A stretch of DNA of 64,000 bases from SAR92 clade bacterium H921 (GTDB lineage: Bacteria; Pseudomonadota; Gammaproteobacteria; Pseudomonadales; Porticoccaceae), in the NCBI GenBank assembly GCA_025153755.1, contig JAOALD010000001.1, forward strand, positions 372,001 through 436,000, given 5' to 3'. Both the position numbers and the translations under genes were made by a program. The stretch's first letter is position 1; the number at the start of each line of letters is the position of its first letter. Shown here piece after piece: positions 15,368-48,813 of the stretch. The notes beneath the pieces were generated by a model. That model worked only from the letters and a program-made list of their open reading frames with translations. It did not search any database and was not told the origin of the DNA.

Positions 15368-15464
15368 TGTAACAAAGGATGTAACAAAACCGGAATTTTA
15401 AACGAATTAAACCTATATTAATCAATAGGTTATCGTGTAGGTGCAATTCCCGCCGCCTCCACCA
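15368..15464 (+). other. Attachment-site repeat 1 (ssrA 3'-end type), right end of island A
   Basis: The core TTCCCGCCGCCTCCACCA (15447-15464) is the 3' end of a tmRNA gene: the last part of the T arm, the acceptor strand and CCA. TAATCAAT (15419-15426) lies exactly 20 bases before it, inside an inverted repeat AACCTAT/ATAGGTT (15410-15416, 15425-15431). Further upstream TGTAACAAA occurs twice, 12 bases apart (15368 and 15380). The same layout recurs at 47.9 kb and partly at 28.9 kb. No tmRNA body precedes it. I infer an island-end attachment site, with the paired repeats as possible recombinase arm sites. Confidence 0.7.
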
Positions 15465-15511
15465 AACAAGTGATTTAAGAGACACTTCGCAAAACTAAGT
15501 ATCTAGTAAAT

Positions 15512-15547
15512 ACCCATACAGGCCAGTATATCTGGTCATGTATGGGT
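15512..15547. repeat. Long stem-loop just right of attachment repeat 1
   Basis: ACCCATACA (15512-15520) pairs with TGTATGGGT (15539-15547), and inside it GGCCAG pairs with CTGGTC (one G-T pair, one bulged base), with loop TATAT. It lies 48 bases after the attachment core and could be a terminator without a clear T-run, or part of the island end. Confidence 0.45.
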
Positions 15548-16252
15548 CATTTAGGTTTTGTAAGAATATTACCCGATGGCATATCATCAATGCTTATCTT
15601 TTACGGTATTAAAAATTTTTACTGCTCATTAGGGGATTTGGTACTCATCAAATGTGAATGATTAATAATTTTTGGAAGACATAGATTACATGAGGGATTT
15701 GATCTCACGATTATGGAAAAACTTGGAGCCAATGATAATCTATTTTTACTACAGAGTTGGAGATATAAACTTCAAAAATTAGTTGGATAGGTGCGCGATA
15801 TTTATAGACATTAGATGGAAAAATCATGTTCATTTTTATTGGAGCTTTTGGTGTAACTGTTTGGAGAGTAAAATCTCACATATAGGAAGCGTAGCTACTC
15901 CATAAAAAAAGCTTCTGCATAAAAGGTTTTGCATAACTTAGAGGCGAGCTAGTAAGATCTAATATTCAACACAATCACTTAGAAAAGCTTGTAAAAACTT
16001 GTGTGTACCGAATTGGTTACTATTAGAAATTAAATAATATAGTAATTCATGCAGAAATTAATGAAATAATCGAACGTATATACCTCGTTTTAGAGTGTCT
16101 TATCCTCATTATTATTTCGGTTTTTATTGTAGTCGCCCGAAGGCTGATTTTTGGATTAAATAGTCACGTTCAACGTGAATTCTGGAAAATGTTTTTTAAA
16201 TTCAGTGGCGAAATTATCAGCTACGCTAGTATGAAGCCCCCCATTGGTTATG
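15548..16252. other. AT-rich non-coding stretch at the left end of island B
   Basis: No frame of useful length, and no RNA gene, is recognised in these 705 bases. The sequence is strongly AT-rich with short scattered frames such as one near 15712. It may hold decayed island-end DNA (for example a lost integrase), but nothing could be matched. Confidence 0.4.
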
Positions 16253-17020
16253 CTAAATTATTCCCCCATCTACTACGAATGTTTGGCCTGTCACTAGACG
16301 GCTCTCGTCTGAGCAAAGCCATAGAGCCAGTTTGGCAACATCTTGAGGCTCCAATAGTTTTTTTAGGCATTGTTTGGCTAAGTACTCGTCTATTTTTTCA
16401 GGAAACCTTTCGGCTTTCAGTTTCTGTCTTTCAGTTAGAATCCAGCCAGGAGATATTGAGTTTACTCTTATGTTGCTTATTCCTAGTTCTCTAGCAAGCG
16501 ATTTGGTTAACCCTTCTATTGCGGACTTGAGCGTGAGGTATGCGCTGACATCTGTAACTCCTAAACGCCAAGCAATGGAACCCATATTTATAATAACGCC
16601 GCTTTTTTTTTGAACCATCGATTTAGACACATGCTGTGCTATAAAGTACTGATGCCTCAAATTAACATTTACGCTTGAATCCCAGTATTCGGGAGTTACT
16701 TCATGAAATTTGTGTGTTTCATCGTGGCCGGCATTATTTATTAGAATATCAAAAGGCCTCATCTTCTTTTCGAGTGAAATAATTTTTTCTTTAGTTCCAA
16801 CAATATCGCAAACATCAACTATTCCATATATGGGTTTCTTTAGTCCACTATCTTCGATATCGCCACTAACTAACTCTGCTGCATGTTCGTTAATATCTAA
16901 AAATGCGACATTAGCCTTTTGCTCGCAAAGCATTCTTACTATCGCTGCACCGATACCAGCAGCTCCGCCGGTAACAAGTACATTTTTACCCATCAACGAA
17001 TCGTATTTACATGCCATCAT
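16253..17020 (-). CDS. NAD-dependent aldose 1-dehydrogenase-like SDR
   Basis: A 255-residue SDR: cofactor motif TGGAAGIG (17-24), LDIN after strand 2 suggesting NAD, NNAG at 95-98, catalytic Ser148, Tyr161 and Lys165. The stretch HDETHKFHEVTPEYWDSSVN and then NLRH is the pattern I know from xylose/arabinose/galactose 1-dehydrogenases of the Caulobacter XylB type, which oxidise an aldose to its lactone. It lies 21 bases downstream of the IclR-lactonase fusion gene on the same strand, so both are likely cotranscribed: dehydrogenase then lactonase is the expected metabolic order. Sugar specificity is inferred from the DgoK/DgoA genes nearby (galactose-type). Confidence 0.75.
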   Translation of the reverse strand: MMACKYDSLMGKNVLVTGGAAGIGAAIVRMLCEQKANVAFLDINEHAAELVSGDIEDSGLKKPIYGIVDVCDIVGTKEKIISLEKKMRPFDILINNAGHDETHKFHEVTPEYWDSSVNVNLRHQYFIAQHVSKSMVQKKSGVIINMGSIAWRLGVTDVSAYLTLKSAIEGLTKSLARELGISNIRVNSISPGWILTERQKLKAERFPEKIDEYLAKQCLKKLLEPQDVAKLALWLCSDESRLVTGQTFVVDGGII

Positions 17021-17041
17021 CTAGCCTCACTTAATTCCACG

Positions 17042-18775
17042 TTATCCGCCGAACGAATTGCTTTCTACTCCTTTAATATCAACATCAATGGCAAATAAGC
17101 TTCCCGAAAAAGGTGCTTGCGCTAAAGCCTCAGCGGACAAGCGAATTCGGGCAGATGTTATATACAGAGTTTTCATGTCTGTGCCTCCGAACGTGCAGCT
17201 AGTTGGCCGCGGGACTGGCAAGTTTATCACTCTTGTGATGACGCCATTTTTGTCATATCTTATGACTTTCCAGCCATCCCAGATAGCTACCCAAAGGCCG
17301 CCTTCTTCGTCAATCGCAAGTCCGTCAGGTGTGCCATCGTCAGAATCAAACTTAATGAAGACAATTTTGTTTGATACTGTGCCATTTTCAAGATCGTAGT
17401 CCATGGCATAAATGACCCTCTCACCAGAGTCTGCCAAGTACATCTTGGTATATTCCTTATTCCATCCAATACCATTTGCAATATGAAGGCCATCTAGGAT
17501 TCGACTAACATTATGATTTTCATCAAGTCTGAATAGTGCTCCTTTTTTAGGGAGTGCATCAATAGATAGTGTGCCGGCCCAAAAACGACCCCTAGCGTCG
17601 CATTTACCATCATTAAAGCGACAGCCGTCAATATTTTTAACAGAAGCTAAAGGTGTGATCACCCCAGTTGCTATATCTATACGCCGAAATCCATTTTGGG
17701 TTGCGGCGATATTTCCACCGGACTTTCGGGGAACTGTAACACCCACTATCTCTGATAGCATAGTTTTCCGGTCGACTTTTGTTGCAATATCGAATTTATG
17801 CACGGACGGCTCCAGAATATCGACCCACTCGATAGTTCCGTCTTCTGAGTTCCAGTGAGGACTCTCACCCAAGAATGCTTTCTCAGGTAGAACACAAGTC
17901 ACTCCTTCTGTTACGTCGACAGATGGTCGTATGATTTTTGTAATAGACATATAGTTTTCGCCGATATTTCCTGAGGTTCTTCTAGCGGACTCGATGACTT
18001 CTCTGCCAAAGTTGTGTAAAACATCTACTGGCAATCTGTGCGTACTGGCAATAATGCTTATTGCACCGAGAGGTTTTCCATTTGAATCAATTATGGGGGC
18101 TGCTACGGAGCTAACACCCTCAAAGTCTTCTTCTTCTGAAATAGCATATCCACGAGCCTTTACTAGGTTAAGCTGACTTTTTAATTCAGAAATACTATTT
18201 ATTGTATTTCGGGTCAGTGATTCTAAGTTATCATCACCTATGAGCTTATTAAGTTCCATCTGATCGAGGTGGGCCAATATCACTTTTCCTGCTGCACTGC
18301 CATGTAATGATAGACCCCTGCCGATGCTGAGATTAATTTGAATAACGTCATCAATTTTTTTTTCCCCAATGATTAGTGGTTTTACTCCATCGAAAGCCAC
18401 CAGTTGGGCGGTTTCATTACTAATGGAGACTAGACGCGCTAGCTCTGGATCGGCACTTCCTCTGAGATCAAACCGATTCCAAACTTTGTGAGCCATCTCA
18501 AATAATTTTGACCCAAGATGATAGGAGTTGTTGCTCTCATCAATCCTTACCAGTTGAAACTCTGTGAGTGCCTGTAAGATCCTATGCAAGGTTCCCTTAG
18601 GGAGCGCAGAAATCTTTTGTAGCTCAACGAAGCTATAAGGTTTTTCAGAGTCTGAGATTATTTGTAGTACTGACAAGCTCTTCCAGACCGACTGAGCTCC
18701 AGCAACAGGCTCTGAAGGTCGATTAGTTTTTGTGTCACTTAACACTTTTGCCCATGATTCTCGTTCAGACTTCAT
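17042..18775 (-). CDS. IclR-type regulator fused to SMP-30/gluconolactonase domain
   Basis: A 577-residue two-part protein in one frame. Residues about 25-90 are an IclR winged helix (ALPKGTLHRILQALTEFQLV), and about 95-270 the IclR effector domain (GRGLSLHGSAAGKVILAHL, EEEDFEGVSSVAAPI). From about 283 a complete SMP-30/gluconolactonase propeller follows with metal-ligand motifs: LGESPHW (Glu), RFNDGKCDARGRFWAGT (Asn), ANGIGW (Asn) and GTPDGLAID (Asp). The natural reading is a regulator that also carries, or senses through, a sugar lactonase. It is cytoplasmic, with no signal. It is divergent from the enolase-superfamily gene and probably regulates island B. The two halves are usually separate genes in this kind of cluster. 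Confidence 0.85.
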   Translation of the reverse strand: MKSERESWAKVLSDTKTNRPSEPVAGAQSVWKSLSVLQIISDSEKPYSFVELQKISALPKGTLHRILQALTEFQLVRIDESNNSYHLGSKLFEMAHKVWNRFDLRGSADPELARLVSISNETAQLVAFDGVKPLIIGEKKIDDVIQINLSIGRGLSLHGSAAGKVILAHLDQMELNKLIGDDNLESLTRNTINSISELKSQLNLVKARGYAISEEEDFEGVSSVAAPIIDSNGKPLGAISIIASTHRLPVDVLHNFGREVIESARRTSGNIGENYMSITKIIRPSVDVTEGVTCVLPEKAFLGESPHWNSEDGTIEWVDILEPSVHKFDIATKVDRKTMLSEIVGVTVPRKSGGNIAATQNGFRRIDIATGVITPLASVKNIDGCRFNDGKCDARGRFWAGTLSIDALPKKGALFRLDENHNVSRILDGLHIANGIGWNKEYTKMYLADSGERVIYAMDYDLENGTVSNKIVFIKFDSDDGTPDGLAIDEEGGLWVAIWDGWKVIRYDKNGVITRVINLPVPRPTSCTFGGTDMKTLYITSARIRLSAEALAQAPFSGSLFAIDVDIKGVESNSFGG

Positions 18776-18935
18776 TTATTCCCCGCTTGATGCATTTAAA
18801 GTGGACTCTATTATCTCTTATTTTTGGTTGCGAAGAAATTTATGTCTTCCTGGGAGCATTATTTCATATTATTCTTTATATTGGAACAGGAGTCTATATA
18901 ATGGACATTTTTTAAACTAATGAATTGGAGATGTT
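18776..18935 (+). promoter_or_regulatory. Divergent promoter region with IclR-type half site
   Basis: This gap separates the IclR-lactonase gene from the enolase-superfamily gene. TATTGGAACAG at 18879-18889 resembles the left arm of the palindrome at 20130-20148 (TATGGAACAG) but its right arm is weak. GGAG at 18927-18930 sets the GTG start at 18936. Confidence 0.35.
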
Positions 18936-20087
18936 GTGGAAATCAAATCGGTACAGCGTTGGCTTGTTAGGGTTCCGTTTAAGGAGGATATTTTTTGGGC
19001 GTCGGGTCGTCGAATCGGACCAACTCGCTTATTGGTGAGGATTGAAACCGATGCCGGAATAGTTGGTTGGGGAGAGACTATTTGTTTGATTGATGCGGTT
19101 TGGTCTGTTTTTGATCAGGTCGTAAAACCAATTGCGATAGGGTATCAAGTTTCAGATGTTGAAAAGTTTACCAAGCATATTCTGGGAGCCGGATATTATC
19201 ATCACAAAAGAGCGGCCGTAATGGCTTCAGCGGCAATGGAGATGGCTATGTGGGATGCCTATGGGAAGATGTTGTGCCAGCCCTTGCATCGTCTATGGGG
19301 CGGCTCATGGAGAGATAGCGTGCGCTGTTCAGCGTACCTTTTTACGTCTGACCCAGTATCTGTTTCGGAAAAAGCTAAGTATTTTTTGGATTTGGGTTAC
19401 ACCTCCTTCAAAGCAAAAATAGGGTTTGATTACCAAACAGACATTAAAGTCACGGAATCTGTGAGAACTGCGGTGGATGATTGTGAGCTTAGGGTCGATG
19501 TGAATGGAGCTTGGACGCCAGGAACGGCAAAGAGGTTATTAAATAGACTTAGGGACTACGATCTTTCTTATGTCGAGCAGCCTTTGCAGATGGATGATTT
19601 GCTCGGGCATGTCGAGCTAAAGCAATCACAGCCAGTGCCTATAGCATTAGATGAGAGTGCGTATACGTTAGAGGATGTCGGCAATATAGTTCGTATGGGT
19701 GCGGCAGATGTATTGCTTCTTGATCCGCATGAGGCAGGTGGCTGTTGGCAGGTCATAAAGTCTGGGGCTATAGCTGAAGCCGCGGGAATACCCTTGTCTT
19801 TACATAGTGGGGGTGAATTGGGATTCTCTCAGGCGGCGTATTTGCACTTAGCTGCATCGATATCGAATATGACGATTTCTATTGATACTGAGCGCGATTA
19901 TTTGGGTGCAGATGTTGTCTTGAATTCACCGCAAATTGTGGATGGTGCTTATCAAGTACCTGTTGAGCCTGGTTTGGGAGTGGAGCCTGATATGGACAAA
20001 ATTGAGCTTTATTCAGTCGACTCTATAGAGGGCGCGTATTTGGATAATCATCGCCCGGGATGGTTTCCAGTTAAGCCAGAGTTCTAG
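18936..20087 (+). CDS. Enolase-superfamily (mandelate racemase/MLE type) sugar acid dehydratase or cycloisomerase
   Basis: A 383-residue cytoplasmic enzyme. Active-site elements of the superfamily are in place: KAK with Lys159 and Lys161, metal ligands Asp188 (in RVDVNGAW), Glu214 (YVEQPL) and Asp239 (in LDES), and His290 in SLHSGG. In this gene set it should convert a sugar acid to a 2-keto-3-deoxy sugar acid, for example galactonate to 2-keto-3-deoxygalactonate; an anhydro-sugar acid cycloisomerase is an alternative because the KxK site is of the MLE kind, unlike classical DgoD. The start is GTG with GGAG six bases before. It probably begins the transport/catabolic transcript of island B. 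Confidence 0.7.
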   Translation: MEIKSVQRWLVRVPFKEDIFWASGRRIGPTRLLVRIETDAGIVGWGETICLIDAVWSVFDQVVKPIAIGYQVSDVEKFTKHILGAGYYHHKRAAVMASAAMEMAMWDAYGKMLCQPLHRLWGGSWRDSVRCSAYLFTSDPVSVSEKAKYFLDLGYTSFKAKIGFDYQTDIKVTESVRTAVDDCELRVDVNGAWTPGTAKRLLNRLRDYDLSYVEQPLQMDDLLGHVELKQSQPVPIALDESAYTLEDVGNIVRMGAADVLLLDPHEAGGCWQVIKSGAIAEAAGIPLSLHSGGELGFSQAAYLHLAASISNMTISIDTERDYLGADVVLNSPQIVDGAYQVPVEPGLGVEPDMDKIELYSVDSIEGAYLDNHRPGWFPVKPEF

Positions 20088-20129
20088 TCTGTTGTCTGCC
20101 CGATAACCCAAAAGTTTAAATCTCCATAA

Positions 20130-20148
20130 TATGGAACAGTGTTTTATA
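20130..20148. promoter_or_regulatory. KdgR-like palindrome upstream of the TonB receptor
   Basis: TATGGAACAGTGTTTTATA is a 19-base imperfect palindrome around a central G, with arms TATGGAACA and TGTTTTATA matching at 7 of 9. It resembles the KdgR operator form with AAACA-TGTTT arms known from enterobacterial IclR-family KdgR. It lies 118 bases before the TonB receptor ATG. Binding by the IclR-lactonase fusion protein is inferred. Confidence 0.5.
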
Positions 20149-20265
20149 TGTTGATTTAATAGGAATGTTCTGTTAATTTACCATCCCTTTCGCCAAGGTT
20201 TACCGAAAAATCGGTTAGAAAAATTAATTAATAAAGAGGCATTGCCTCCAAGACGAGGAGAAGTT

Positions 20266-22953
20266 ATGAAAAAATATAATGGGGTGAAAAAATCAGTCGC
20301 GATAGCTGTTGCTGTGAGTTGCAGCGCTGGTATCTCTGCGCAAGACACCGATGGTGGTTATGAGTTGGAAGAGGTAGTGGTGACTGGTGTTCGAGCAAGC
20401 TTGCGCGGAGGTATTGATGCTAAGCGCGGTGCTGATAATTTCGTAGATGTCATTAAAGCTGAGGATATTGGTGAACTTCCCGATGCTAACTTGGCGGAGT
20501 CTCTCCAGCGAATTACTGGTGTCCAGATTGTCCGAGATGTGGCGGCTTCGAGGGAAGGCTTGTCAGGTCAGACCGTCAATATCCGCGGCCTATCATCGTT
20601 AGCGACTATTAATGGACGCACTATGTTGGCAGGATCTTTATCTCGTGATTTCGATTTTCGGACACTCGCGTCCGAAGGGTTTGGTGAACTGGTAATATCC
20701 AAATCACCAGCGGCTAACCAAATTGAAGGTGGCTTGGGTGGTACGATAGAGTTAAAAACCAGAAATCCAAATGAATTTGAAGAGCGTCAACTCTCTTTTA
20801 CCGCAAATGCGATCACGTTGGATTACGCTGGTACGACAAATCCTAATTATTCTGGGTTTTACGCCGATAGTTTTGCCGACGGTAGGCTAGGTGTTCTTGT
20901 GTCAGGCTCGTATGAAGAGTTGGATACTCGCACCGATGCGTATACCGCCCGAGGCGGGTGGATTGTTTCTAATGGGTTTACAGAATCTGGATTTGATTTT
21001 GATGAAAATGGTACACAGGATTTAATTCTCCCTTCAGATATTCGTTATTGGTATCAAGAAGATCAGCGTGTTAGGACTGGCCTAGATACCTCAGTTGTGT
21101 TCGCAGCTGCCGAATCCTTAGATATCACCTTCAACGCAAACTATTCGAAATTAGAGCGTGATTTTTTTAATGGTGTGAATAGGGCAGCGGGATTTGGTGC
21201 TACTAATGCGGTAGCGGATTCACTATCAATTGATGATAGTGGTAATTTGCAAGCCGGAACATTTAATGATGCTCTATTACAGTCTGACGGCAGGCTGGAA
21301 ATTGATAACGTAAAAGCAGTTAACTATGGTGTTAATTTTGATTGGGAGCTTGGTGATTGGGGTGTGAACTTTGATATTGGCCGCTCAGAAGGCCAGAATG
21401 AGGGTCGTCAACTTATTAGTCGATATCGTTTAATCGAATCACCGACCATCACCTATAACTACAATAACTCAACCATTCCAAGCGTAATTGTGAATGACGG
21501 TTCTACTGATCTGGACGATCGCTCTTTATACAGAGCAGATTTATATTTTAACAACCCGGATGTTGGTGAGAATGACGAGACTATGTTGCGCTTAGATATC
21601 GAGCGAACATTTTCAGACGGCGTTATTACCAAAGTGACTGGAGGTATTCGTAGCACAGATACACAGTACAGTTCGTCCTCATTTAGACAGGTTGGATTTG
21701 TTGATGTAGCTGGTAACCCAGTTTCGACAGACCAGGCCACTGGTGAATATATTCCGGCGGACACATCGAAGCTAGATCCTATTCTTCAAGGCTTTCCTGT
21801 GGATGACTTCTTTGCGGGCCAGAGTGGTGATTTTCAACGTTCTTGGGTATACACATCCTACCCTGATGCAGGTTTGGGTGACGGCGGGGTGTATGCTGAT
21901 ATCTATGGGTTAACCGCGAAAGGTGTAACTGAAGTTTTGGGTAATCGAACAGATATTAATGAAGACACATTTGCCGCTTATTTTATGGCTGACTATGAGT
22001 TCGATTTGGGTGGCGTGCCGGTTAATGGTAATTTTGGCATCCGATATGTTGGAACCGATGTTTCTTCCCTTGGCCTTCAAACTCAGCAGGATGGCAGCCA
22101 GGATCTTGCTGTGAGTGAACATGACTACGACGATATCTTGCCAAGTCTTTCAGTTGTTGCCAGTCTTTCTGATAACTTGCTTTTCCGAGCGGCATTTGCA
22201 GAAGTTATGAAGCGACCCAACATTGGCTCACTGCGTGCTAGCCTAAGTGTGGATCTATCAGACCTTGCGGGTTCAGCTGGAAACGTTGAATTGGATCCGT
22301 ATAGAGCTAAGCAGGTCGATATGGGTCTAGAATGGTATTTCGCAAATGAAGGTTTGTTATCTGCCACCGTATTCTATAAGGATGTCGAAAACTTTCTCTC
22401 CGTGGAGACTGAAACTAACGTCAATTTAGGTTTAGTCGGTTATGACGGAGGCACGTTGTTTACGGTTAAACGCCCTGTTAATGCAGGAACGGCTGAGATT
22501 AAAGGTTTTGAGGTTAGTTATCAGCAGGCTTTTGATTTTCTGCCAGAGCCATTCAATAATCTAGGGGCCATTGCAAACTATACGTATGCGGATGCTGATA
22601 CTAGCTCTGGTGAAACATTCCCAGAGCTATCAGAGCAAGTGTACAACTTGATAGCGTTCTATGATAACGGTAGGTTTGATGCTCGTTTTGCGTATAACTG
22701 GCGGTCTGAGTACGCGTTCGGCGGTGACGGGTCGAATGGTTTGCAGTTTCTTGGAATTTCGGAAAAAGTTGAAGACGGTGGTCAGTTAGACTTTTCGACT
22801 AGCTACGGTTTAACCGACAACTTTGATGTCATGTTCGAAGTACTCAACATAACTGAAGAAGACTTTAGTCGAGTTGTGGGTAACAGTTCTAGGTTGCGAG
22901 AATACCGAACTGGTGAGAGGCGCTTTTCTTTAGGTATCCGAGCCACGTTTTAG
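20266..22953 (+). CDS. TonB-dependent receptor (sugar uptake)
   Basis: An outer-membrane receptor of about 895 residues. The ATG at 20266 is preferred over the upstream TTG because GAGGAG precedes it and a signal peptide (KKSVAIAVAVSCSAGISAQ) follows. Just after it comes ELEEVVVTGVRASL, the TonB-box/plug start typical of marine carbohydrate receptors, then the plug with DANLAESLQRITGVQI. The remaining 700 residues are beta-barrel strands, ending RRFSLGIRATF with a C-terminal Phe for barrel assembly. It would import oligosaccharides released by the glycoside hydrolase at 24957, into the periplasm. The gene is preceded by the KdgR-like palindrome and followed by a 12-pair stem-loop. Confidence 0.9.
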   Translation: MKKYNGVKKSVAIAVAVSCSAGISAQDTDGGYELEEVVVTGVRASLRGGIDAKRGADNFVDVIKAEDIGELPDANLAESLQRITGVQIVRDVAASREGLSGQTVNIRGLSSLATINGRTMLAGSLSRDFDFRTLASEGFGELVISKSPAANQIEGGLGGTIELKTRNPNEFEERQLSFTANAITLDYAGTTNPNYSGFYADSFADGRLGVLVSGSYEELDTRTDAYTARGGWIVSNGFTESGFDFDENGTQDLILPSDIRYWYQEDQRVRTGLDTSVVFAAAESLDITFNANYSKLERDFFNGVNRAAGFGATNAVADSLSIDDSGNLQAGTFNDALLQSDGRLEIDNVKAVNYGVNFDWELGDWGVNFDIGRSEGQNEGRQLISRYRLIESPTITYNYNNSTIPSVIVNDGSTDLDDRSLYRADLYFNNPDVGENDETMLRLDIERTFSDGVITKVTGGIRSTDTQYSSSSFRQVGFVDVAGNPVSTDQATGEYIPADTSKLDPILQGFPVDDFFAGQSGDFQRSWVYTSYPDAGLGDGGVYADIYGLTAKGVTEVLGNRTDINEDTFAAYFMADYEFDLGGVPVNGNFGIRYVGTDVSSLGLQTQQDGSQDLAVSEHDYDDILPSLSVVASLSDNLLFRAAFAEVMKRPNIGSLRASLSVDLSDLAGSAGNVELDPYRAKQVDMGLEWYFANEGLLSATVFYKDVENFLSVETETNVNLGLVGYDGGTLFTVKRPVNAGTAEIKGFEVSYQQAFDFLPEPFNNLGAIANYTYADADTSSGETFPELSEQVYNLIAFYDNGRFDARFAYNWRSEYAFGGDGSNGLQFLGISEKVEDGGQLDFSTSYGLTDNFDVMFEVLNITEEDFSRVVGNSSRLREYRTGERRFSLGIRATF

Positions 22954-22963
22954 AGTAAGGTAC

Positions 22964-22996
22964 GAATATCGCCCCGTAATAACTGGGGCGATATTC
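22964..22996. terminator. Perfect 12-pair stem-loop after the TonB receptor gene
   Basis: GAATATCGCCCC (22964-22975) pairs perfectly with GGGGCGATATTC (22985-22996), loop of nine bases, starting 11 bases after the receptor stop. There is no T-run, so it may cap or partly terminate the receptor message rather than end transcription fully. Confidence 0.55.
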
Positions 22997-23127
22997 ACAA
23001 CCAGTAATATAAGTGCTTTAAAGTGCAAATATATTTCAAATATAACTCACGATCCGCCAAAATATCTAATGGTGTAAATTCGTAACAATATCGTGGCTGT
23101 CTGCTACATTCGATCAATAGGATAATA

Positions 23128-24843: not shown

Positions 24844-24956
24844 GCACTTAGTCATACGCAGTAAATATGTTGCTAGTCGGATTTTTATCTCAGTATCTGG
24901 TTAGCTGATTCTCAAACCTACTCTGATATCTGATCTACAACGAGGTACGAAAGATT

Positions 24957-26876: not shown

Positions 26877-27025
26877 TGGCTGAGAGCTTAAAGTTAGGAT
26901 ATTCCAGCTATCAAAGCGGATAGAAAAATAAGCTAACTTAAAAATCTTTGAGCGGATCATGAGATCTGACAAGAGTTAGGCAACTCTGGTCAGCCAGAAT
27001 TTGCATGATTGAATTTTTTTGATGG

Positions 27026-27967: not shown

Positions 27968-28012
27968 TTTAGGTGCGTGATTATAATTTCATTTTAACTG
28001 GGGTAGAGAATA

Positions 28013-28642: not shown

Positions 28643-28883
28643 ATAACAGCCATCGTCACTACATAATTGTTTTATCGCCCAGACTCAAATGCCCTCCCCA
28701 ATGATTTTAAGAAATATAAAAACTAAATGATATTACCGGCCATTAATCAAAAGAGTATGGAAAATTTATCACCCTTGATTGGTGGTACATCTGTAACGAT
28801 TGTCAATTAAAGCTTGTACTTTTGCTGAGCTTATCTTGTTAGGTGACTTCATTTCGCACATGTATTACATTCAAGAAGGCTAA

Positions 28884-28968
28884 AGTAACACAGTGGGATT
28901 ATTGATATACATATACCAATACTAATCAATTGCTTACAGTCTAAGTTCAATTCCCGCCGCCTCCACCA
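28884..28968 (+). other. Attachment-site repeat 2 (ssrA 3'-end type), between islands B and C
   Basis: The 18-base core lies at 28951-28968, preceded by AGTTCAA, so the tmRNA-like T arm is longer here than in the other copies. TAATCAAT (28923-28930) is exactly 20 bases before the core. AGTAACACA at 28884 sits at the same offset (67 bases) as the second TGTAACAAA of repeat 1 and matches it at seven of nine bases. The palindrome around TAATCAAT is degraded. Directly after the core comes a complete terminator hairpin. Confidence 0.7.
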
Positions 28969-28974
28969 ATAACA

Positions 28975-29002
28975 AAACCTCAACCCGCAAGGGTTGAGGT
29001 TT
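28975..29002 (+). terminator. tmRNA-type intrinsic terminator after attachment repeat 2
   Basis: AAACCTCAACCC pairs perfectly with GGGTTGAGGTTT around a GCAA tetraloop, with a run of T from 29000. The position, six bases after CCA, is that of an ssrA terminator carried along with the 3' end. Confidence 0.8.
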
Positions 29003-29005
29003 TTA

Positions 29006-33533: not shown

Positions 33534-33557
33534 GAGTTTCGATTTATTTATCGGTTT

Positions 33558-36463: not shown

Positions 36464-36477
36464 AGCTCCGACTATAG

Positions 36478-36504
36478 CCCTTCTAGCGGTCCTCGCTGGG
36501 AGGG
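36478..36504 (+). terminator. 11-pair stem-loop after the TonB receptor gene
   Basis: CCCTTCTAGCG pairs with CGCTGGGAGGG throughout its length in RNA (two G-U pairs), loop GTCCT. No T-run follows, so partial termination or message capping before the GH10 gene is more likely than full stop. Confidence 0.5.
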
Positions 36505-36581
36505 TAATAGTTTTCAAACATGCAACTATGGTCAGTTTATAACTGCTTTTACTTTAACTGAATACGGGTGGTCATTGGATT

Positions 36582-40264: not shown

Positions 40265-40312
40265 TGCTAAAAACAAAAACAGAATTGAATACGAGTCATT
40301 AAGGATTTATAC

Positions 40313-41977: not shown

Positions 41978-42011
41978 CTAACCGTTAAAATAGAAAGGAA
42001 AAGGCCGCTCT

Positions 42012-43493
42012 ATGAAAAATATTTTGCCAATCCTTATGTGCGGTATGTCACTGGCATTTAATGCTGTTGCCAGTGACGTCAAGCCGGCCAATGTGCTGTT
42101 TATTATGATTGATGATCTGCGCCCAGAACTGGGCGCTTACGGCAGCACGGCGGTTAAATCGCCTAATATAGATAGCCTGGCCAGTGAGGCGGTGGTGTTT
42201 GCCAATGCCTATGTCAATGTGCCGGTCTGCGGTGCGTCTAGAGCCAGCATGATGTCGGGTATCAGACCGACGGAAAAACGCTTTGTCGGTTATCAAGCAC
42301 GTATTGATGAGGATGCCAAAGGGGCTGAAACGCTATTTGGTTATCTCAAAAAACAGGGCTACTACAGCGAAAGCATCGGTAAGATATTGCACTTTTCTGA
42401 GGATTCTAAAGCAGGTTGGAGTACGCCACCCTGGAATCCGAAGCCCAAGATTAAGCGGATAGGACACCGTAATTATCAGCGCGCGGAAAACATTGCCAGC
42501 TTTTTGAAGGATCGGGTGGGTCCCGCCTATGAAGCCGCGGATGTGCCGGATAATCATTATTTTGATGGCATGATTGCTGATCAGGCTATGGCATCTCTTG
42601 AATCCGTCAGCCAGCGCGATCAGCCTTTCTTTATGGCGGTGGGTTTTTTAAAGCCTCACCTGCCGTTTAACGCACCTTTACGCTACTGGGATCTCTATCG
42701 GGAAGACGATATCGATCTTGCGAGTAATCCACTTATGCCTGTAGCGGCACCTCGCGAGGCGATGCACAGTTGGGGGGAGCTACGCAAATTTGAAGGTATC
42801 CCCAAAGCACCGCACCCGGTTCCCGACGCTATGGCAAAGAAACTGGTTCATGGATATCTTGCCAGCGTCAGTTACTCGGATGCTCAGGTGGGGAAATTAG
42901 TGACCAAATTAAAACAGCTTAACCTCGACGATAACACCATTGTTATCGTCGCTGGAGACCATGGCTTTAGCCTCGGCGAACATGGTTTATGGGTTAAACA
43001 CTCGCCCTTTGATGTTGCGACGAGAACACCGCTAATCGTTAAGTTGCCGACAACACTGACTGAGACATCTACTATGGGGCTTCTGGGAAGTACTCTATCC
43101 ACACGCAGTGAACCGACCCCAAACTTGAAACCGGGAGTCGGTATTGCCGAGGGTTTAGTCGAGTTTGTCGATATATTTCCCACCGTACTCGAGTTATTGG
43201 GTAAGCCCAAACTTGCGCAGTTGCAGGGCGATAGCTTCGTAAGCCAGCTGATAGATGTCAGTGCACCGGGCAAAGTAGCAGTGTTTCCGCGCTGGCATGC
43301 AGCAGACGTGATTAAGACCGATCGCTATGCCATGACAGAGTGGTTTGATCAACAGGGACAAGTAACAGCGCGGATGCTCTTTGATCACTTAAATGATCCT
43401 AAAGAGACGATTAATCTGGCTGAACATAAAGACTATAAATCGCTTGTTGCCGATCTTCATGAGCAACTGATTTCTTTGAGAGAAAATCGATAG
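42012..43493 (+). CDS. Secreted sulfatase (iduronate-2-sulfatase-like, S1)
   Basis: A 493-residue sulfatase with a Sec signal peptide (about 20 residues). The signature is CGASRASMMSG with formylglycine site Cys73, the CxAxR variant; the metal-site motif MIDDLRPELGAYG and the KHSPFDVATRTPL segment resemble iduronate-2-sulfatase-like S1 proteins. It continues the operon after the lipoprotein sulfatase (34-base gap). Two different sulfatase branches side by side suggest removal of sulfate from different positions of the same glycan; that is inference. Confidence 0.88.
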   Translation: MKNILPILMCGMSLAFNAVASDVKPANVLFIMIDDLRPELGAYGSTAVKSPNIDSLASEAVVFANAYVNVPVCGASRASMMSGIRPTEKRFVGYQARIDEDAKGAETLFGYLKKQGYYSESIGKILHFSEDSKAGWSTPPWNPKPKIKRIGHRNYQRAENIASFLKDRVGPAYEAADVPDNHYFDGMIADQAMASLESVSQRDQPFFMAVGFLKPHLPFNAPLRYWDLYREDDIDLASNPLMPVAAPREAMHSWGELRKFEGIPKAPHPVPDAMAKKLVHGYLASVSYSDAQVGKLVTKLKQLNLDDNTIVIVAGDHGFSLGEHGLWVKHSPFDVATRTPLIVKLPTTLTETSTMGLLGSTLSTRSEPTPNLKPGVGIAEGLVEFVDIFPTVLELLGKPKLAQLQGDSFVSQLIDVSAPGKVAVFPRWHAADVIKTDRYAMTEWFDQQGQVTARMLFDHLNDPKETINLAEHKDYKSLVADLHEQLISLRENR

Positions 43494-43507
43494 TCTCTTT
43501 CTGAATC

Positions 43508-43709
43508 AGCTTGCTCCGTACTGCGAGTAATCTTGGTGGATACCGGACGTTAAAGTTGACAAAGAATAGCGTAGATGCAACCGAAGCTTTAGATATTGGT
43601 CAATAGAAAAGTTCTTCAGTGGATGGTGATGCCCCAGTCAATCGTGCAGTAGACGGATGGAATCTGATGGTTAAGAATATAGATATTAATGAGCCGGAAT
43701 GGAATTAGT
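43508..43709 (+). pseudogene. Possible relic of a secreted carbohydrate-binding domain
   Basis: The 349-base gap 43494-43842 holds a frame that reads coherently across one stop: NLGGYRTLKLTKNSVDATEA, LDIGQ, a stop at about 43604, then SSSVDGDAPVNRAVDG and WNLMVKNIDINEPEWN to a stop at 43709. GDAP-NRAVDG resembles the start of F5/8 type C (discoidin-like) domains. The match is short and the frame broken, so this is a weak call; otherwise the gap holds nothing recognised before the ribosome-binding site of the next gene. Confidence 0.25.
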
Positions 43710-43842
43710 TTGATTTTCTCCAAACAACAGCGGAGCCGAGTTCTAAATATTCAATAAAAATAGTCAACACTTATCGATGCTGGCTTTAGGGCAATCTGTG
43801 ATACCTTGACTGACTTGCCGATACCTAAAAAAGGGGGGGTTG

Positions 43843-44808
43843 ATGCCTTCATTTAATAATATTTCTCTGGTCCTGTTGCTTACAGTGTCTCTGGTTGCTT
43901 GTGGCGAAAGGAGTGGCCCTCTGTTCTGTTTAACTGAAGCCGATATGGGCGCTACCAAGGACATTATAGGCGGACAATTTATGTTGGGTGATAATCGCTT
44001 TTATGTCGAAGAAGGTCCCGCTGGAATCGCATCTGTCGGAGACTTTAATATTGATCGTACTGAAGTGACTAACTGGCAATTTAGGGCTTTTATAGAGGCC
44101 ACGGGATATGTTACTGCCGCAGAGCTTGGGCTGTCTCAAAAGGACTTCCCTAATGTGCCGCCAGAGCTCCGGGTTCCCGGGTCCATGGTCTTTGTCTCTC
44201 CAGATCCAGATAATGTGAGTGTCCCTGCCAGCTGGTGGCAGTTTGTGCCCGGTGCCAACTGGCAGCATCCTTTAGGGCCCGAGAGCTCTATTGAAGGAAA
44301 AGATGCTTTCCCTGTAGTGCATATTATACATGCGGATGCCAAGGCCTATGCTGAATGGATGGGTCGGCGCCTACCCACAGAAGCGGAGTGGGAATATGCA
44401 TCCAGGGGAGGTTTAGATGGCGCCACCTACTCCTGGGGTCAGGAGTCTCCTCACCAAGGTGAGTCCAAGGCAAACACTTGGCAGGGACATTTCCCTTACA
44501 CCAATTTTAAGGATGATGGCTTTGTAGGTAGCTCGCCAGTTGGATGTTTCCCTAAAAATGGCTATGGGCTGTACGATATGACCGGCAATGTATGGGAATG
44601 GACTGACACAGCATACGGCCCAGATCATAAGAGAAATTACGGGGATGGGGGGTATGACCCCCAGCAGCCTGGCATTAAGGTTAAAACTCTTAAAGGAGGT
44701 TCATTTTTGTGTTCAGATAACTACTGTCAACGCTTTCGTCCTGCCGCTCGACAGGCTCAAGATGTTACGCTCGGCTCGTCTCATATTGGTTTTCGAACGG
44801 CTAAGTGA
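43843..44808 (+). CDS. Formylglycine-generating enzyme (SUMF1 type) with lipoprotein signal
   Basis: A 321-residue enzyme; ATG 43843 is chosen because AAGGGGGGG precedes it. The domain spans about 40-320: DRTEVTNWQFRAFIEATGY, the RRLPTEAEWEYASRGG signature, LYDMTGNVWEWT and GGSFLCSDNYCQRFRPAAR. Cys290 and Cys295 reproduce the C-x4-C copper/substrate pair of true aerobic formylglycine-generating enzymes, so this is not just a SUMF1-fold relative. It converts the sulfatase signature Cys to formylglycine. Unusually, it begins with a lipoprotein signal (lipobox LVAC, Cys20), placing it outside the cytoplasm, where it would act on the exported sulfatases of this locus. Confidence 0.88.
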   Translation: MPSFNNISLVLLLTVSLVACGERSGPLFCLTEADMGATKDIIGGQFMLGDNRFYVEEGPAGIASVGDFNIDRTEVTNWQFRAFIEATGYVTAAELGLSQKDFPNVPPELRVPGSMVFVSPDPDNVSVPASWWQFVPGANWQHPLGPESSIEGKDAFPVVHIIHADAKAYAEWMGRRLPTEAEWEYASRGGLDGATYSWGQESPHQGESKANTWQGHFPYTNFKDDGFVGSSPVGCFPKNGYGLYDMTGNVWEWTDTAYGPDHKRNYGDGGYDPQQPGIKVKTLKGGSFLCSDNYCQRFRPAARQAQDVTLGSSHIGFRTAK

Positions 44809-44955
44809 CAGGCAAGTACCAGTTATTTAACAGTCAAGCAGCAGCCAAGTAATAGCAAGCAGTGGATTGACCAATAATAACAATCGCCACAACAATTAGT
44901 AGTGTAAGAAATTCAAAAAAAGAGAACGTAATAATAAAAAAACTTAGGAGGAATA

Positions 44956-46389
44956 ATGACTATCGGCGCAAGCTTCAGCACTAATAAACTCAGTATTTTC
45001 CAAATCACCATTGTCGCTGCATTAGGTGGTTTATTGTTCGGATATGACACCGGTGTGATAGCGGGTAGTCAGCTTTATTTCACCAAATATTTTAATCTTT
45101 CAGCTGCCGAGCAGGGTTGGGCAGTCAGCAGTGCGCTGTACGGTTGTCTAGTGGGTGCGTTGGCGGGTGGTTATCTCACTAAGCGTATCAGCAGAAAGTA
45201 TACGCTGGTCCTCGCGGCCGCTCTATTTGCTATCTCGGCCTGGGGTTCTGGTCTCGCAGCAACCCTCAATGAGCTGGCGATCTACCGTATTATTGGCGGT
45301 CTTGCCGTGGGCATGGCCTCATTGGCGGCGCCTATGTATATTGCTGAAATGGCGCCACCGAAATACCGTGGTCGCATGGTTTCTTACTATCAGTTGGCCG
45401 TGGTTATTGGTTTCTTTGTGGTATTTTTAGCGACCTATTTTATTGGCGGTGGCGACACGGAGAATATGACCCCAGAAGCGCTTGCGCAGCTTCATGAGCA
45501 CAATGTTAATCGGGGCTGGCGCATTATGCTCTGGTCTGAGCTATTGCCGGCACTGGCTTTCTTGGCGCTGCTTTTTACTGTGCCTCACAGCCCCCGTTGG
45601 TTGATCTTACAGGGCCGCACTGAAGAGGCTAAAACGGTGCTGGCTCAGATAACCTCGAGCGAGCAGGAGGCGGCCTCTGAGTTTGCTGATATAGAGACAT
45701 CACTGACCAATAGCCCAGCCCCCAATCTGGCTATGCTGTTTGGCAAAGGTATTGGCTTTGCTCTATTTCTTGGCGTTATGTTGTCGATATTCCAGCAGGT
45801 CACCGGCATTAACGCGATTCTTTATTACGGGGCAGAAATTTTTAGTAATGCTCTGGGCTATGGCCCAGAAGATGCCCTTAAGCAGCAGCTCTGGCTGGGT
45901 GCGGTCAACCTTATCTTTACCTTTGTCGCTATTTACAAAGTCGATAGCTGGGGCCGCAAACCGCTGTTTATTGGCGGTAGTATAGGTATGTGTGCCGGTT
46001 TAACGGTGCTGGGTCTGACTATTTATACCCAGCAGATGGGGGTTGTTTCCCTGATCGCTGTGTTGGTCTTTATCGCCTCATTCGCCATGTCCATGGGTCC
46101 CGTGGTGTGGGTGATATTGTCGGAGATGTTCCCAAATAATGTGCGCAGTGTCGCTATGTCGATCGCCGTTGCGGCACAGTGGCTATTTAATGCCTTGGTT
46201 GCCAATAGCTTCCCTCTAGTAAACCAAAGTACCTTTAATCAGGAGGGTTTTAACGGTGCGCTGCCATACTTTATCTTTGCCTCTTTCTGTGTGGTCGCGA
46301 TGATTTTTGTCTGGAAGCTCGTCCCTGAGACCAAGGGTAAGACACTCGAAGAGATGGAAGCGCTCTGGGCGGCGAAGGATCAGGGCTAA
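44956..46389 (+). CDS. MFS sugar transporter (XylE-type sugar porter)
   Basis: A 477-residue inner-membrane carrier with about twelve helices and the sugar-porter signatures: GYDTGVIAGSQLY at helix 1, GGLAVGMASLAAPMYIAEMAP, PHSPRWLILQGR before the central loop, QQVTGINAILYYGAEIF at helix 7 and PETKGKTLEEME at the C-terminus. These are shared by XylE and related proton/sugar symporters. It would import the xylose or other monosaccharide released in the periplasm. TTAGGAGGAATA directly before ATG is a near-ideal ribosome-binding site, so strong translation is expected. Confidence 0.9.
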   Translation: MTIGASFSTNKLSIFQITIVAALGGLLFGYDTGVIAGSQLYFTKYFNLSAAEQGWAVSSALYGCLVGALAGGYLTKRISRKYTLVLAAALFAISAWGSGLAATLNELAIYRIIGGLAVGMASLAAPMYIAEMAPPKYRGRMVSYYQLAVVIGFFVVFLATYFIGGGDTENMTPEALAQLHEHNVNRGWRIMLWSELLPALAFLALLFTVPHSPRWLILQGRTEEAKTVLAQITSSEQEAASEFADIETSLTNSPAPNLAMLFGKGIGFALFLGVMLSIFQQVTGINAILYYGAEIFSNALGYGPEDALKQQLWLGAVNLIFTFVAIYKVDSWGRKPLFIGGSIGMCAGLTVLGLTIYTQQMGVVSLIAVLVFIASFAMSMGPVVWVILSEMFPNNVRSVAMSIAVAAQWLFNALVANSFPLVNQSTFNQEGFNGALPYFIFASFCVVAMIFVWKLVPETKGKTLEEMEALWAAKDQG

Positions 46390-46579
46390 AAAGACCTAGT
46401 AGCCTTGCCCTGGTAAAACATGTCATTAATATAAGTCGTTGATGAGAGTTGTGATGGAAGCTGGGGTGGGAATCGCGGACGGTGCAGGAAAGTTCCACTA
46501 CTGATTTTACGGCAGTTAATTTCAGGGGATGAGGCTTAAGCTTATCTTGTGGTGAGTTTGAAGTGGGACAGTACTTCGA

Positions 46580-46672
46580 GTGGCGAGACAACGCGGGAGC
46601 GCAGCGACGGTGGCCCCGAAGGGGGAGGGTGAGGCCCGAATAATTCCCGCGTCCACCACCACTTAAGAATTA
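46580..46672 (+). ncRNA. Structured GC-rich intergenic element (possible small RNA)
   Basis: The 378-base gap after the carrier gene holds a GC-rich block unlike its surroundings. CGCGGGA (about 46593-46599) is complementary to TCCCGCG (about 46645-46651), enclosing a CCCC-GAA-GGGG hairpin, and GTGG before pairs with CCAC after. It is followed at once by a terminator hairpin. Its 3' part, ATTCCCGCGTCCACCACCA, looks like a degraded version of the attachment core. It could be a small RNA, an intergenic repeat, or a relic of a tmRNA/tRNA 3' end. No promoter is obvious. Confidence 0.3.
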
Positions 46673-46673
46673 C

Positions 46674-46690
46674 CCCCTGTTTTTCAGGGG
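46674..46690 (+). terminator. Hairpin terminator candidate
   Basis: CCCCTG pairs with CAGGGG around a five-T loop, followed by TGTTTCTTCATTT. It may end the transporter transcript or the structured element before it. Confidence 0.55.
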
Positions 46691-46767
46691 TGTTTCTTCA
46701 TTTAGCTTTTAGTATATCTGCTCCAAACGATTTAATATGAGATCTACCCAACAGAGCATCGAGTCAC

Positions 46768-47892
46768 ATGTCATCCAAAATCCTCTGGTTAAAAATAATT
46801 ATCGGGATTGCACTTGCAGTAGTACTGATAATGGCGAGTCCATTTAAAACAGCAATTCTAGGCAGTGCTTCACTCGAGGCTAACGCTCATCTGAATAACT
46901 TAATAACATCATCTGACTCATTTCTATTATCTGCGCCTGTGGCGATTGCAGGACGGACGTCCGAAGAGAACGGAGAAGATATATTTAGAAAAACCTCCGT
47001 CGTCAATGAGTCATTAGATGCATGGTTCGACCGCAGTCAAACTCAGGCACTAATTGTTCAAAAAAAAGGTCGCATTATTTATCAGCGTTATAGTCCAGAT
47101 GCTGACGATGGTCGCCGTGTAAATGCTATGTCTATGACCAAAGCCATTGTTGCAATACTTATTGGTATCGCCATTGATGAGGGCCTCATTAATTCCGAGA
47201 CAGACTCTATTTCTCAGTATCTCCCTCAAATAACACAACCGTCTGAGAATCCGGTTACTCTTCGAGATTTGCTGAGACATACCTCGGGTATAGAATCAGC
47301 ATCAAAGGACATTACAGCGACCTTGAAGGGTAATTCATTAATAACACCCTTATCTGAAATCTCGTTTAATGATGAGCGCTTATTCCGCTATGACAATATT
47401 AATTACCATCTGCTGAGTCTTGTACTGACGAATATCTATAAACAGCCCCTTAACCAATTAATCGAGAATAAGCTCTGGCAGCCGCTAACACTTGAGGAAG
47501 CCTCTGTTATCAATACGGCTGGTTATTGCTGTATGTTTGCCACGGCAAGATCATGGCTCGAAATAGGCGACTTATTTCTCGATCCAAAAAATGACGTAGT
47601 CTCTTCACTCTGGCTAGAAAAAATGGTTAAAGACTCAGTTATTCCAGAGTGGTTTTTCGTTCAGGCAACTGGCAAATCAGCAGGCAATAGTTATGGCTAT
47701 CACATTTACCGTGGGTTACCCAACACACCTGAAGTGTTCTGGATTGAAGGGATGGGCCTGCAGCTGATTATAGTTAATCCCCAGACCGAAACAGTGATCG
47801 TCAGGCTTGGCGGCATTCCCTCTATACTTAATGTTTTCTCAAACCGGCACGAAAAGTCAATCATAGCGCCATTACTCAATGTTTTAATGTAA
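46768..47892 (+). CDS. Serine beta-lactamase-like hydrolase (class C / esterase type)
   Basis: A 374-residue protein with an N-terminal hydrophobic segment (about residues 8-23) acting as signal anchor. The active-site motif SMTK gives Ser122 and Lys125, and RYDNINYH carries the YxN motif; this is the fold of class C beta-lactamases, DD-peptidases and related esterases. Most family members outside resistance settings are esterases or peptidases, so a deacetylating or side-chain esterase role in glycan breakdown is possible but not shown. It is the last gene before attachment repeat 3 and carries AT-richer sequence than the transporter upstream. Confidence 0.75.
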   Translation: MSSKILWLKIIIGIALAVVLIMASPFKTAILGSASLEANAHLNNLITSSDSFLLSAPVAIAGRTSEENGEDIFRKTSVVNESLDAWFDRSQTQALIVQKKGRIIYQRYSPDADDGRRVNAMSMTKAIVAILIGIAIDEGLINSETDSISQYLPQITQPSENPVTLRDLLRHTSGIESASKDITATLKGNSLITPLSEISFNDERLFRYDNINYHLLSLVLTNIYKQPLNQLIENKLWQPLTLEEASVINTAGYCCMFATARSWLEIGDLFLDPKNDVVSSLWLEKMVKDSVIPEWFFVQATGKSAGNSYGYHIYRGLPNTPEVFWIEGMGLQLIIVNPQTETVIVRLGGIPSILNVFSNRHEKSIIAPLLNVLM

Positions 47893-47919
47893 GCTAGTAT
47901 CGCTCGGTGCTTCTTTCTT

Positions 47920-48015
47920 TGTAACATAGGATGTAACAAAGCAGATTTTGAAGCCCATTAAACCTATATTAATCAATAGGTTAGCATTTATGCACAGTTC
48001 CCGCCGCCTCCACCA
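47920..48015 (+). other. Attachment-site repeat 3 (ssrA 3'-end type), right end of island C
   Basis: The core (47998-48015) is identical to the other two. TAATCAAT (47970-47977) lies exactly 20 bases before it within the same inverted repeat as repeat 1 (AACCTAT/ATAGGTT). TGTAACATA and TGTAACAAA at 47920 and 47932 are again 12 bases apart. Apart from the 20 bases between TAATCAAT and the core, much of the 95 bases matches repeat 1. After CCA comes ATAACAAAACCT as at repeat 2, but the terminator is broken: AAAACCTA at 48021 and TAGGTTTT at 48060 are parted by an extra 17 bases. Confidence 0.7.
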
Positions 48016-48066
48016 ATAACAAAACCTAAACCCGACAGGGTTGGGTCGTCGCTGCCAGCTAGGTTT

Positions 48067-48813
48067 TTATTGATAACTGGCCCTGAACTCCGATGGACGT
48101 AGCGAAAATGCCCGGTAAAACTTGCGGCTGAAATAACTGGCGTCAGGAAATCCACATTGATCGGCAATCAGGGCGACGGGTAAAGTCGTTTCCACCAGAA
48201 ACCGCCTCGCATTTTCGAGGCGCACGTCGCAGATATACTGTTTGGGTGTTTTATTCAGAAACTTCTTAAACCGCCGTTCCAGGGCGCTGATCGACAAACA
48301 GGAGACCTCGGCCAGATCCGATAGGCTGATTTTGTTCATGTAATTATCGCGGACATAGGCCACAGGAACTTTCAGTGCCTCCATGGCGTTAAGGGCTACG
48401 GAGGATTTTTCCAGATGGCGCGATGTGCCGTATGAGCCCACAATCGCGCCGCCGCTGTTTACCAGGGGCCGCTTTGAGGTGATAAACCAACTGATTTCCC
48501 CTGACCCAGATACGTTCATTTCCAATCGATTGGTGACCAGTTCACCCTGAATCACGCGTTGGTCATCAGCGATAAACTGCATGGCGATTTGCCTGGGGGC
48601 AAAATCAGAGTCGGTCAGGCCAATGGCCTGATCCAGCGAGTCCACTCTAATATGATCGAGAAAGCTCTTATTTGCATGGACTACCCTGCCAGCGGTGTCT
48701 TTTACCCAGAACAGGATATCCGGCAATAAATCATACATTTGCAGGGCTCCTGTAATAGACAGTTCATCAATAACGAGCCTTACATTATCGCGTTGTGATT
48801 TATCTATCGACAT
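48067..48813 (-). CDS. PAS domain-AraC family transcriptional regulator
   Basis: A 248-residue regulator. The ATG at 48813 is chosen over one at 48858 because GGGAGGG lies just before it. An N-terminal PAS-like domain (LPDILFWVKDTAGRVVHANK, residues about 28-130) is followed by an AraC double helix-turn-helix: ISLSDLAEVSCLSISALERR then ALIADQCGFPDASYFSRKFY. The PAS domain may sense a small molecule or redox state. It is divergent from the Gfo/Idh/MocA gene by 218 bases and most likely controls that operon; a direct repeat in the gap fits an AraC-type operator. Confidence 0.85.
   Translation of the reverse strand: MSIDKSQRDNVRLVIDELSITGALQMYDLLPDILFWVKDTAGRVVHANKSFLDHIRVDSLDQAIGLTDSDFAPRQIAMQFIADDQRVIQGELVTNRLEMNVSGSGEISWFITSKRPLVNSGGAIVGSYGTSRHLEKSSVALNAMEALKVPVAYVRDNYMNKISLSDLAEVSCLSISALERRFKKFLNKTPKQYICDVRLENARRFLVETTLPVALIADQCGFPDASYFSRKFYRAFSLRPSEFRASYQ

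Follow-up and report, generated by a model that had tools for sequence, protein, structure and literature searches.

Why should an 18-base sequence that looks like the 3' end of a transfer-messenger RNA (tmRNA) gene, ssrA, recur three times in a stretch of DNA that holds no tmRNA gene? We addressed this question for 64,000 nucleotides of SAR92 clade bacterium H921 (Porticoccaceae), referred to here as the window, which corresponds to C1:372001-436000 in an assembly of 13 contigs and 2.57 Mb. A preliminary description of the window had taken the repeats for the attachment cores of a tandem array of islands inserted into ssrA. The genome itself (G000) was compared with its congeners (SAR92 clade, Porticoccaceae) and with other members of the family (genomes G001, G002, etc.); many of the genus genomes are drafts, so that absences from them are weak evidence. 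The reading that we favor, with a probability of about 0.86, is that integrative islands have accumulated at the 3' end of ssrA to form an accretion array. It draws on features visible in the sequences, namely, ssrA, the cores and their arms, the integrases, a near-empty site in a relative, core-bounded sharing of DNA between genomes, and reshuffled junctions.

The ssrA gene, its core repeats, and the units between them

A pattern search returned the exact core at window positions 15447, 28951, and 47998, always on the + strand and with TAATCAAT located exactly 20 bases ahead of it. An AACCTAT/ATAGGTT palindrome and two TGTAACA repeats 12 bases apart accompany repeats 1 and 3 and are degraded at repeat 2, all of which agrees with the preliminary description. 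When up to three mismatches were allowed, the window contained four matches, compared with 0.03 expected by chance; the fourth match lies at 46644 and has three mismatches. A search of the window for tRNA and tmRNA genes found none, in line with the earlier remark that no tmRNA body precedes the cores, and an Rfam scan of the window yielded no family at its gathering score.

Across the genome, the exact core occurs seven times (C1:355192, 358979, 387447, 400951, 419998, 453667, and 463164), in one orientation (+) and within 108 kb, while a reversed control pattern had no match in the genome. An intact ssrA gene (C1:354818-355209, 214 bits, tag ANDDNYALAA) is present upstream, and the first core is its exact 3' end, 16.8 kb left of the window, which bears out the proposed identity of the core. 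The remaining six exact copies follow ssrA downstream on the same strand; core 2 duplicates ∼47 bp of the ssrA end, and the later copies duplicate the core only. The idea that the three window cores are a chance or dispersed repeat unrelated to ssrA, which the preliminary description had kept in mind, is refuted by this placement at and after ssrA as well as by the low number of chance matches, leaving it with next to no probability.

To these exact cores, junction profiles added three degenerate boundaries, at C1:418644 (window position 46644), at C1:453842 (one mismatch, part of a mini-unit), and at ∼C1:467480, which we took as the right end of the array. The profiles describe the right attachment arm (R-arm), i.e., the right end of a unit just before the core, the terminator-like left end (Lterm), and the right half of a mini-unit (Rmini). 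They were built from exact junctions, with the window junction at 15447 itself among those used for the R-arm, and their scores are given for arm or end together with the core. The total of about 10 boundaries delimits about nine units (1, 2, 3, 4a, 4b, 5, a mini-unit, 6, and 7) between 355.2 and 467.5 kb, i.e., over 112 kb. The three cores of the window thus do belong to a tandem array at ssrA, as proposed, but they are a minority of its boundaries. Likewise, the segments between them are bounded by cores, but that from 28951 to 47998 is not a single island: because the right half of a mini-unit stands just before position 46644, this match is read as a degenerate boundary, which splits the segment into units 4a and 4b.

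Integrases, arm repeats, and mini-units

The preliminary description had seen no integrase gene and supposed an enzyme supplied from elsewhere. There is indeed none in the window, because the window edge cuts off the ssrA end of the array; two integrase genes lie within the same array, 11.6 to 16.7 kb left of the window, so that the enzyme comes from a neighbor. Unit 1 (3.8 kb) carries Int1, of 435 amino acids with PF00589 and DUF6538, starting 86 bp right of ssrA. Unit 2 (28.5 kb) carries Int2, of 416 amino acids with the domains Arm-DNA-bind_3, Phage_int_M, and Phage_integrase, which starts 181 bp past the first base of core 2. Both enzymes match PF00589 and are thus tyrosine integrases; no further PF00589 match was found in the array between C1:361 and 467 kb. 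Among its 80 open reading frames (ORFs) of at least 80 amino acids, the 70 that were scanned with Pfam gave no match to a serine recombinase family and none to relaxase, conjugation, mobilization, or phage structural families. Relatives of Int2 with at least 44% identity occur in 7 of 48 genus genomes (its own included), each with its start 180 to 194 bp beyond the first base of an exact core; at an E value of ≤1e-30 the count is 11 of 48, the remaining four having 31 to 38% identity and not lying beside a listed core. A phage or plasmid origin of Int2 was considered and set aside, as matches occur in both types of records, all below 60% identity. In the search for PF00589, G000 showed no obvious XerC/XerD pair, and G048 and G014 gave no hit at all, which could reflect a limit of this first-pass search.

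The pattern GTAAC-N7-GTAAC occurs five times in C1:330001-530000, every time at an attachment site: once beside int2 (C1:359112) and otherwise 77 to 78 bp before the cores at 387447, 419998, 453667, and 463164. The Int2 unit carries the pair at both of its own ends, the one before 387447 being its right end, while the other three pairs end the integrase-less units 4b, 5, and 6. A separate, GATACA-type repeat pair is confined to the flanks of unit 1. The intact Int2 arm type is thus borne by three of the six integrase-less cargo units, whereas units 3 and 7 have a degraded arm, and unit 4a ends in half a mini-unit; an R-arm profile match ends five of the six (3, 4b, 5, 6, and 7). Three keep the exact pair and two more a degraded arm; these units are best read as cis-mobilizable islands that lost, or never had, an integrase of their own.

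By the mechanism that we propose, the 18-bp core of an element in circular form would be recombined by an integrase with the ssrA-end core or with another core of the array, and insertion would restore the tmRNA 3' end and add one more core at the far side, so that repeated insertion could lead to about nine units over 112 kb. A likely participant would be the P4-type Int2, whose own unit has paired GTAAC at either end. For Int2 as the enzyme that may move the integrase-less units as well, the shared arm repeats are the sole indication. We infer a circular form of the units, along with the travel of their DNA between cells and its route.

On the other side of the core, a terminator-like hairpin was found within 75 nucleotides to the right of 31 of 56 exact and 5 of 18 degenerate cores, compared with 0 of 54 stretches left of exact cores and 21 of 2,000 random stretches, the latter not matched for intergenic position. 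A terminator at the left end of every unit is thus a tendency rather than a rule, and in G000 only 3 of the 10 boundaries pass. The excess of hairpins fits, without proving it, the notion that many units once stood beside ssrA. The combination of AATCA, spacer, and core is not restricted to this clade, being present also in Vibrio, Legionella, Haliea, Microbulbifer, and others (29 stretches, including Porticoccaceae) and in 28 IMG/VR stretches. An upstream GTAAC pair was seen in none of the 28 viral stretches and, outside SAR92-like records, only in a metagenome-assembled genome of the Acidobacteria. Given that the pair is almost confined to SAR92-like records, the AATCA-spacer-core pattern itself is general to ssrA integrases.

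The mini-units, ∼175 bp in size, consist of a core, a terminator, GC-rich hairpins, and another core and often stand in tandem behind ssrA or between islands (C1:453667-453859 in G000, G007:C2:421870-422237, and G026:C1:426325-426888, as well as G002, G040, and G047). In E. coli, the tyrT/rtT locus has tandem 178-bp repeats behind an RNA gene, each with a tRNA-type 3' tail. The mini-units are similar to these in size and layout only and differ in lying behind ssrA and between islands; in three mini-unit loci, no Rfam family was matched at its gathering score, nor was the rtT family at an E value of ≤0.1. Tandem repeats of 171 to 174 bp were also observed behind tRNA genes, namely, tRNA-Arg (tcg) of G007 (L079) and tRNA-Ala (ggc) (L078 and L080). 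The full repeats behind tRNA-Arg end with a ∼19-bp copy of the tRNA 3' tail, reminiscent of the tyrT repeats in E. coli, and both sets are a related form of the ∼175-bp mini-units. Two further observations concern repeats away from the array: in G001, further R-arms and degenerate cores form a second group ∼370 kb from ssrA (G001:C5:795507-803034; no tRNA gene was found in L081 and L082), and right of the array in G000, C1:483161-484887 contains tandem repeats with 88 to 93% identity.

The ssrA site in related genomes

The exact core is present in 33 of 50 genus genomes, 19 of which have at least two. The gene used as right flank was found in 21 genomes, 6 of which have ssrA and the same right flank on one contig. 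The distance from ssrA to the right-flank DNA (in G000, from 469919) is 2.1 kb in G025, 27 kb in G001, 29 kb in G047, 39 kb in G014, 55 kb in G048, and 115 kb in G000. The empty site that the preliminary description had proposed to look for is thus approached in G025, but the 2.1 kb there hold other genes, making the site near-empty rather than strictly empty. The site can also be seen without unit 1, given that ssrA is directly joined to the left end of Int2 in G043, G001, and G026, where G000 has the 3.8-kb Int1 unit in between. In G002, a single mini-unit separates ssrA from DNA that lies 36.6 kb away in G026, with flanks that are 91 to 95% identical and a 4.7-kb piece that has a different order in the two genomes.

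Some blocks are shared between genomes. From one core to the next, G007 and G029 carry a 14.5-kb unit at 97.8% identity, with different neighbors on both sides, while a conserved gene located upstream of ssrA in G007 is only 76% identical; G016 and G020 share 16.4 kb at 99.15%, compared with 85% for flanking DNA. This suggests that the exchange was recent. G006 and G045 share 11.8 kb at 99.4%. For units 4 to 7 of G000, the comparison was made with fetched stretches of relatives, and for unit 3 it covered 112 family genomes. Around the window core at 15447, G000 and contig C7 of G006 are 97.8% identical over 315 bp including the core, and the homology ends at the last base of the core. Similarly, the end of unit 6 adjoins unit 7 in G000 and a unit-3-like start in G043, and a relative of the unit 4b gene (83.5% DNA identity) adjoins a degenerate core in G001. 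The left end of unit 4a resembles the sequence right of ssrA in G025. The preliminary description had also asked whether the segments occur elsewhere without the core. For the part tested, the cargo of unit 3 beyond its first 81 to 99 bp was not found in the 111 other family genomes (two candidates scored per genome), whereas these first bases recur right of cores in 3 of them (G013, G043, and G005). The unit 4a stretch C1:401126-418411 is present in G003:C33 with 82 to 87% DNA identity, and an exact core with an R-arm follows ∼3.5 kb after the match ends, on a contig stretch without the ssrA of G003. Taken together, the near-empty site, the unit shared from core to core, and the reshuffled junctions support the earlier proposal of successive site-specific insertions behind one ssrA.

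Several observations weigh against this reading. In four of the seven pairs that share left cargo (G007/G029, G016/G020, G006/G045, and G001/G022), the cargo is clearly less diverged than the 80 bp that immediately precede the core, which have 71.6 to 86.4% identity; among the remaining three, G000/G043 is lowered by a short gap, and the other two are at 95 to 96%. Such diverged arms are not predicted by a simple whole-unit insertion and give the impression that some exchanges had their breakpoints at the arm repeats. The first ∼250 bp of the G007/G029 unit are also more diverged (48 of 250 columns). Moreover, G029 is a draft with 82% completeness and 4% contamination, making mis-binning of the contig possible, although this would leave the difference between the junctions in place. 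In G048 (one contig, 98% complete) and G014, cores and R-arms are present, but PF00589 gave no match at an E value of ≤0.001, so that some arrays look stranded. Finally, an age gradient, with cores and arms decaying with distance from ssrA, could not be upheld: the R-arm scores in G000, from left to right, are 104.5, 74.1, 92.8, 101.8, 100.8, and 36.0 bits, which is no steady fall, and only the last boundary is strongly degraded.

The diverged arms would be more at home in an alternative in which homologous recombination between cores, arms, and mini-units, following the uptake of DNA, was the main way in which the array grew and was shuffled, the integrases accounting for the first insertions only. 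The junctions G029:14620 and G000:463164 can be explained likewise, as they share the arm (92.5%) and the right neighbor (100% over the first 60 bp, then 95.0%) and differ in their left cargo. However, the homology in G000/G006, G000/G043, G001/G022, and G021/G026 runs through the arm and stops within about 10 bases of the core, the Int2 unit has paired arm repeats at its two ends, in agreement with an integrase architecture, and an 18-bp core with arms of ∼100 bp offers only short shared repeats for homologous recombination, so that we consider this alternative unlikely. Somewhat more plausible, if still rather doubtful, is that the integrase-less units are dead remnants, once mobile and now fixed, whose repeats only mark past events. 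An R-arm match of at least 50 bits is present in 23 of 48 genus genomes, many more than have an Int2 relative at either threshold, and half of the integrase-less cargo units of G000 have not kept the exact repeat pair; in addition, part of unit 5 matches G048 at 71 to 82%, similar to the flanking DNA, and may therefore be old. The high identities of the units shared by G007/G029 and G016/G020, set against those of the conserved gene or flanking DNA in the same pairs, speak against units that have long been fixed.

Beyond the accretion of islands at ssrA, a wider picture can be sketched tentatively, in which the genus would share a pool of multigene catabolic cassettes with standard ends, and a small Int2 helper island might insert, excise, and reshuffle the integrase-less ones at ssrA in trans. 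Such a system would be integron-like, with cassettes of 1 to 34 kb and the ∼175-bp mini-units behind ssrA as spare landing sites.

Cargo of the units and relation to known islands

Unit 2, the Int2 island (C1:358997-387446), occupies positions 1 to 15446 of the window with its right part, in which we identified DUF3604 proteins, a monooxygenase, a hydrolase, an SDR protein, an MFS transporter, a GST-like protein, an acyl-CoA ligase, an AraC regulator, and a PQQ-repeat protein (here and below, contents are based on Pfam). It ends with an R-arm at 15352-15446 (104.5 bits with the core), which includes the paired repeat at 15369-15385, and is separated by core copy 3 (15447-15464) from unit 3. 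The latter (15465-28950, 13.5 kb, without an integrase) looks like a sugar-acid pathway, as it encodes an IclR-SMP30 lactonase, an SDR protein, an enolase-superfamily dehydratase-like protein, a TonB receptor, a sodium symporter, a 2-keto-3-deoxygalactonokinase, and a KDPG-type aldolase; its degraded R-arm, with no exact repeat pair, lies at 28880-28950 (74.1 bits with the core). Core copy 4 (28951-28968) is followed by the terminator-like left end of unit 4a at 28969-29018, a hairpin with a T run that scores 69.6 bits with the core in the Lterm profile and is positive by the terminator rule. Unit 4a (28969-46643, 17.7 kb) codes for three sulfatases, a sulfatase-modifying factor, a sensor kinase with an SBP_bac_3 domain, a LuxR-type response regulator, a TonB receptor, GH10 and GH3 proteins, and a sugar transporter.

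The right half of a ∼175-bp mini-unit at 46578-46643 (Rmini profile, 50.5 bits with the degenerate core; 89% identity to the mini-unit query) and the degenerate core itself (46644-46661) lead to unit 4b (46662-47997, 1.3 kb), which has a single PF00144 (beta-lactamase-fold) protein and an R-arm at 47906-47997 (92.8 bits with the core; paired repeat at 47921-47937). Core copy 5 (47998-48015) marks the boundary to unit 5; all of these cores, arms, and ends are on the + strand. Unit 5 (C1:420016-453666, 33.7 kb) fills the window from 48016 to 64000 with an AraC/PAS regulator, a Gfo/Idh oxidoreductase, sugar isomerase-like TIM barrels, an MFS transporter, a GMC oxidoreductase, a glucose/sorbosone dehydrogenase, a TonB receptor, and SapC; as a whole, it contains sugar oxidoreductases, TonB receptors, tryptophan-halogenase-family proteins, GH3, and a sigma/FecR pair. 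Farther right, unit 6 carries a sigma factor, a TonB receptor, an anion symporter, and a malic enzyme, and unit 7 carries a P450 and a Rieske oxygenase.

P4-type ssrA islands, such as CP4-57 of E. coli, are usually pictured as single islands. Int2 resembles their integrases in its three domains and adjoins the 3' end of ssrA in relatives, whereas the SAR92 islands form a tandem array and the phage and plasmid matches of Int2 stay below 60%. The tycheposons of Prochlorococcus are marine integrative elements with a tyrosine recombinase, metabolic cargo, and tRNA-type sites, and by this general description the array can be likened to them. The features by which tandem ssrA islands are recognized, i.e., an intact upstream ssrA, successive direct repeats, a relative with a near-empty site, and an ssrA-proximal integrase, were all found here. 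The closest parallel is in Dehalococcoides, in which the first 100 kb after ssrA hold multiple tandem islands that carry catabolic cargo and are delimited by direct repeats, 20 bp long, of the ssrA 3' end; 15 of 31 islands have no integration module, and for these cis-mobilization was proposed (PMC3146451). The SAR92 array likewise is tandem, bounded by ssrA repeats, and catabolic, with units that lack an integration module, but the enzymes differ, being a CcrB-like serine recombinase (DsiB/DsiA module) there (PMC3146451) and two tyrosine recombinases here. Its cargo also differs, comprising sulfatases, glycoside hydrolases, sugar-acid pathways, and oxygenases, with ∼175-bp mini-units interspersed. 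The SAR92 array is thus a tyrosine-recombinase counterpart of the Dehalococcoides islands, in which the core-to-core sharing across species and the mini-units are the less usual features. The integrase-less units, having attachment sites without an integrase of their own, also agree with the definition of cis-mobilizable elements (CIMEs). Compared with the accretion of CIMEs in the ICESt1 family of Streptococcus thermophilus, as far as it is cited in PMC3146451 (Pavlovic 2004), the site here is ssrA, and the scanned ORFs include no conjugation or mobilization family. We found no report of the SAR92 array in our searches of the literature on SAR92 islands, integrases, and polysaccharide utilization or on tandem ssrA islands, subscription journals being mostly outside this search.

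For this group of coastal bacterioplankton, the array represents one genomic address where whole catabolic loci are gained and lost. Core and arm together give a rule for finding such cassettes in any assembly. One contig (G008:C30) ends on the last base of a core; since contigs can break at these repeats, such islands may be undercounted in draft genomes. Related species carry different arrays, with some of the same blocks beside different neighbors, which makes the accretion model directly testable.

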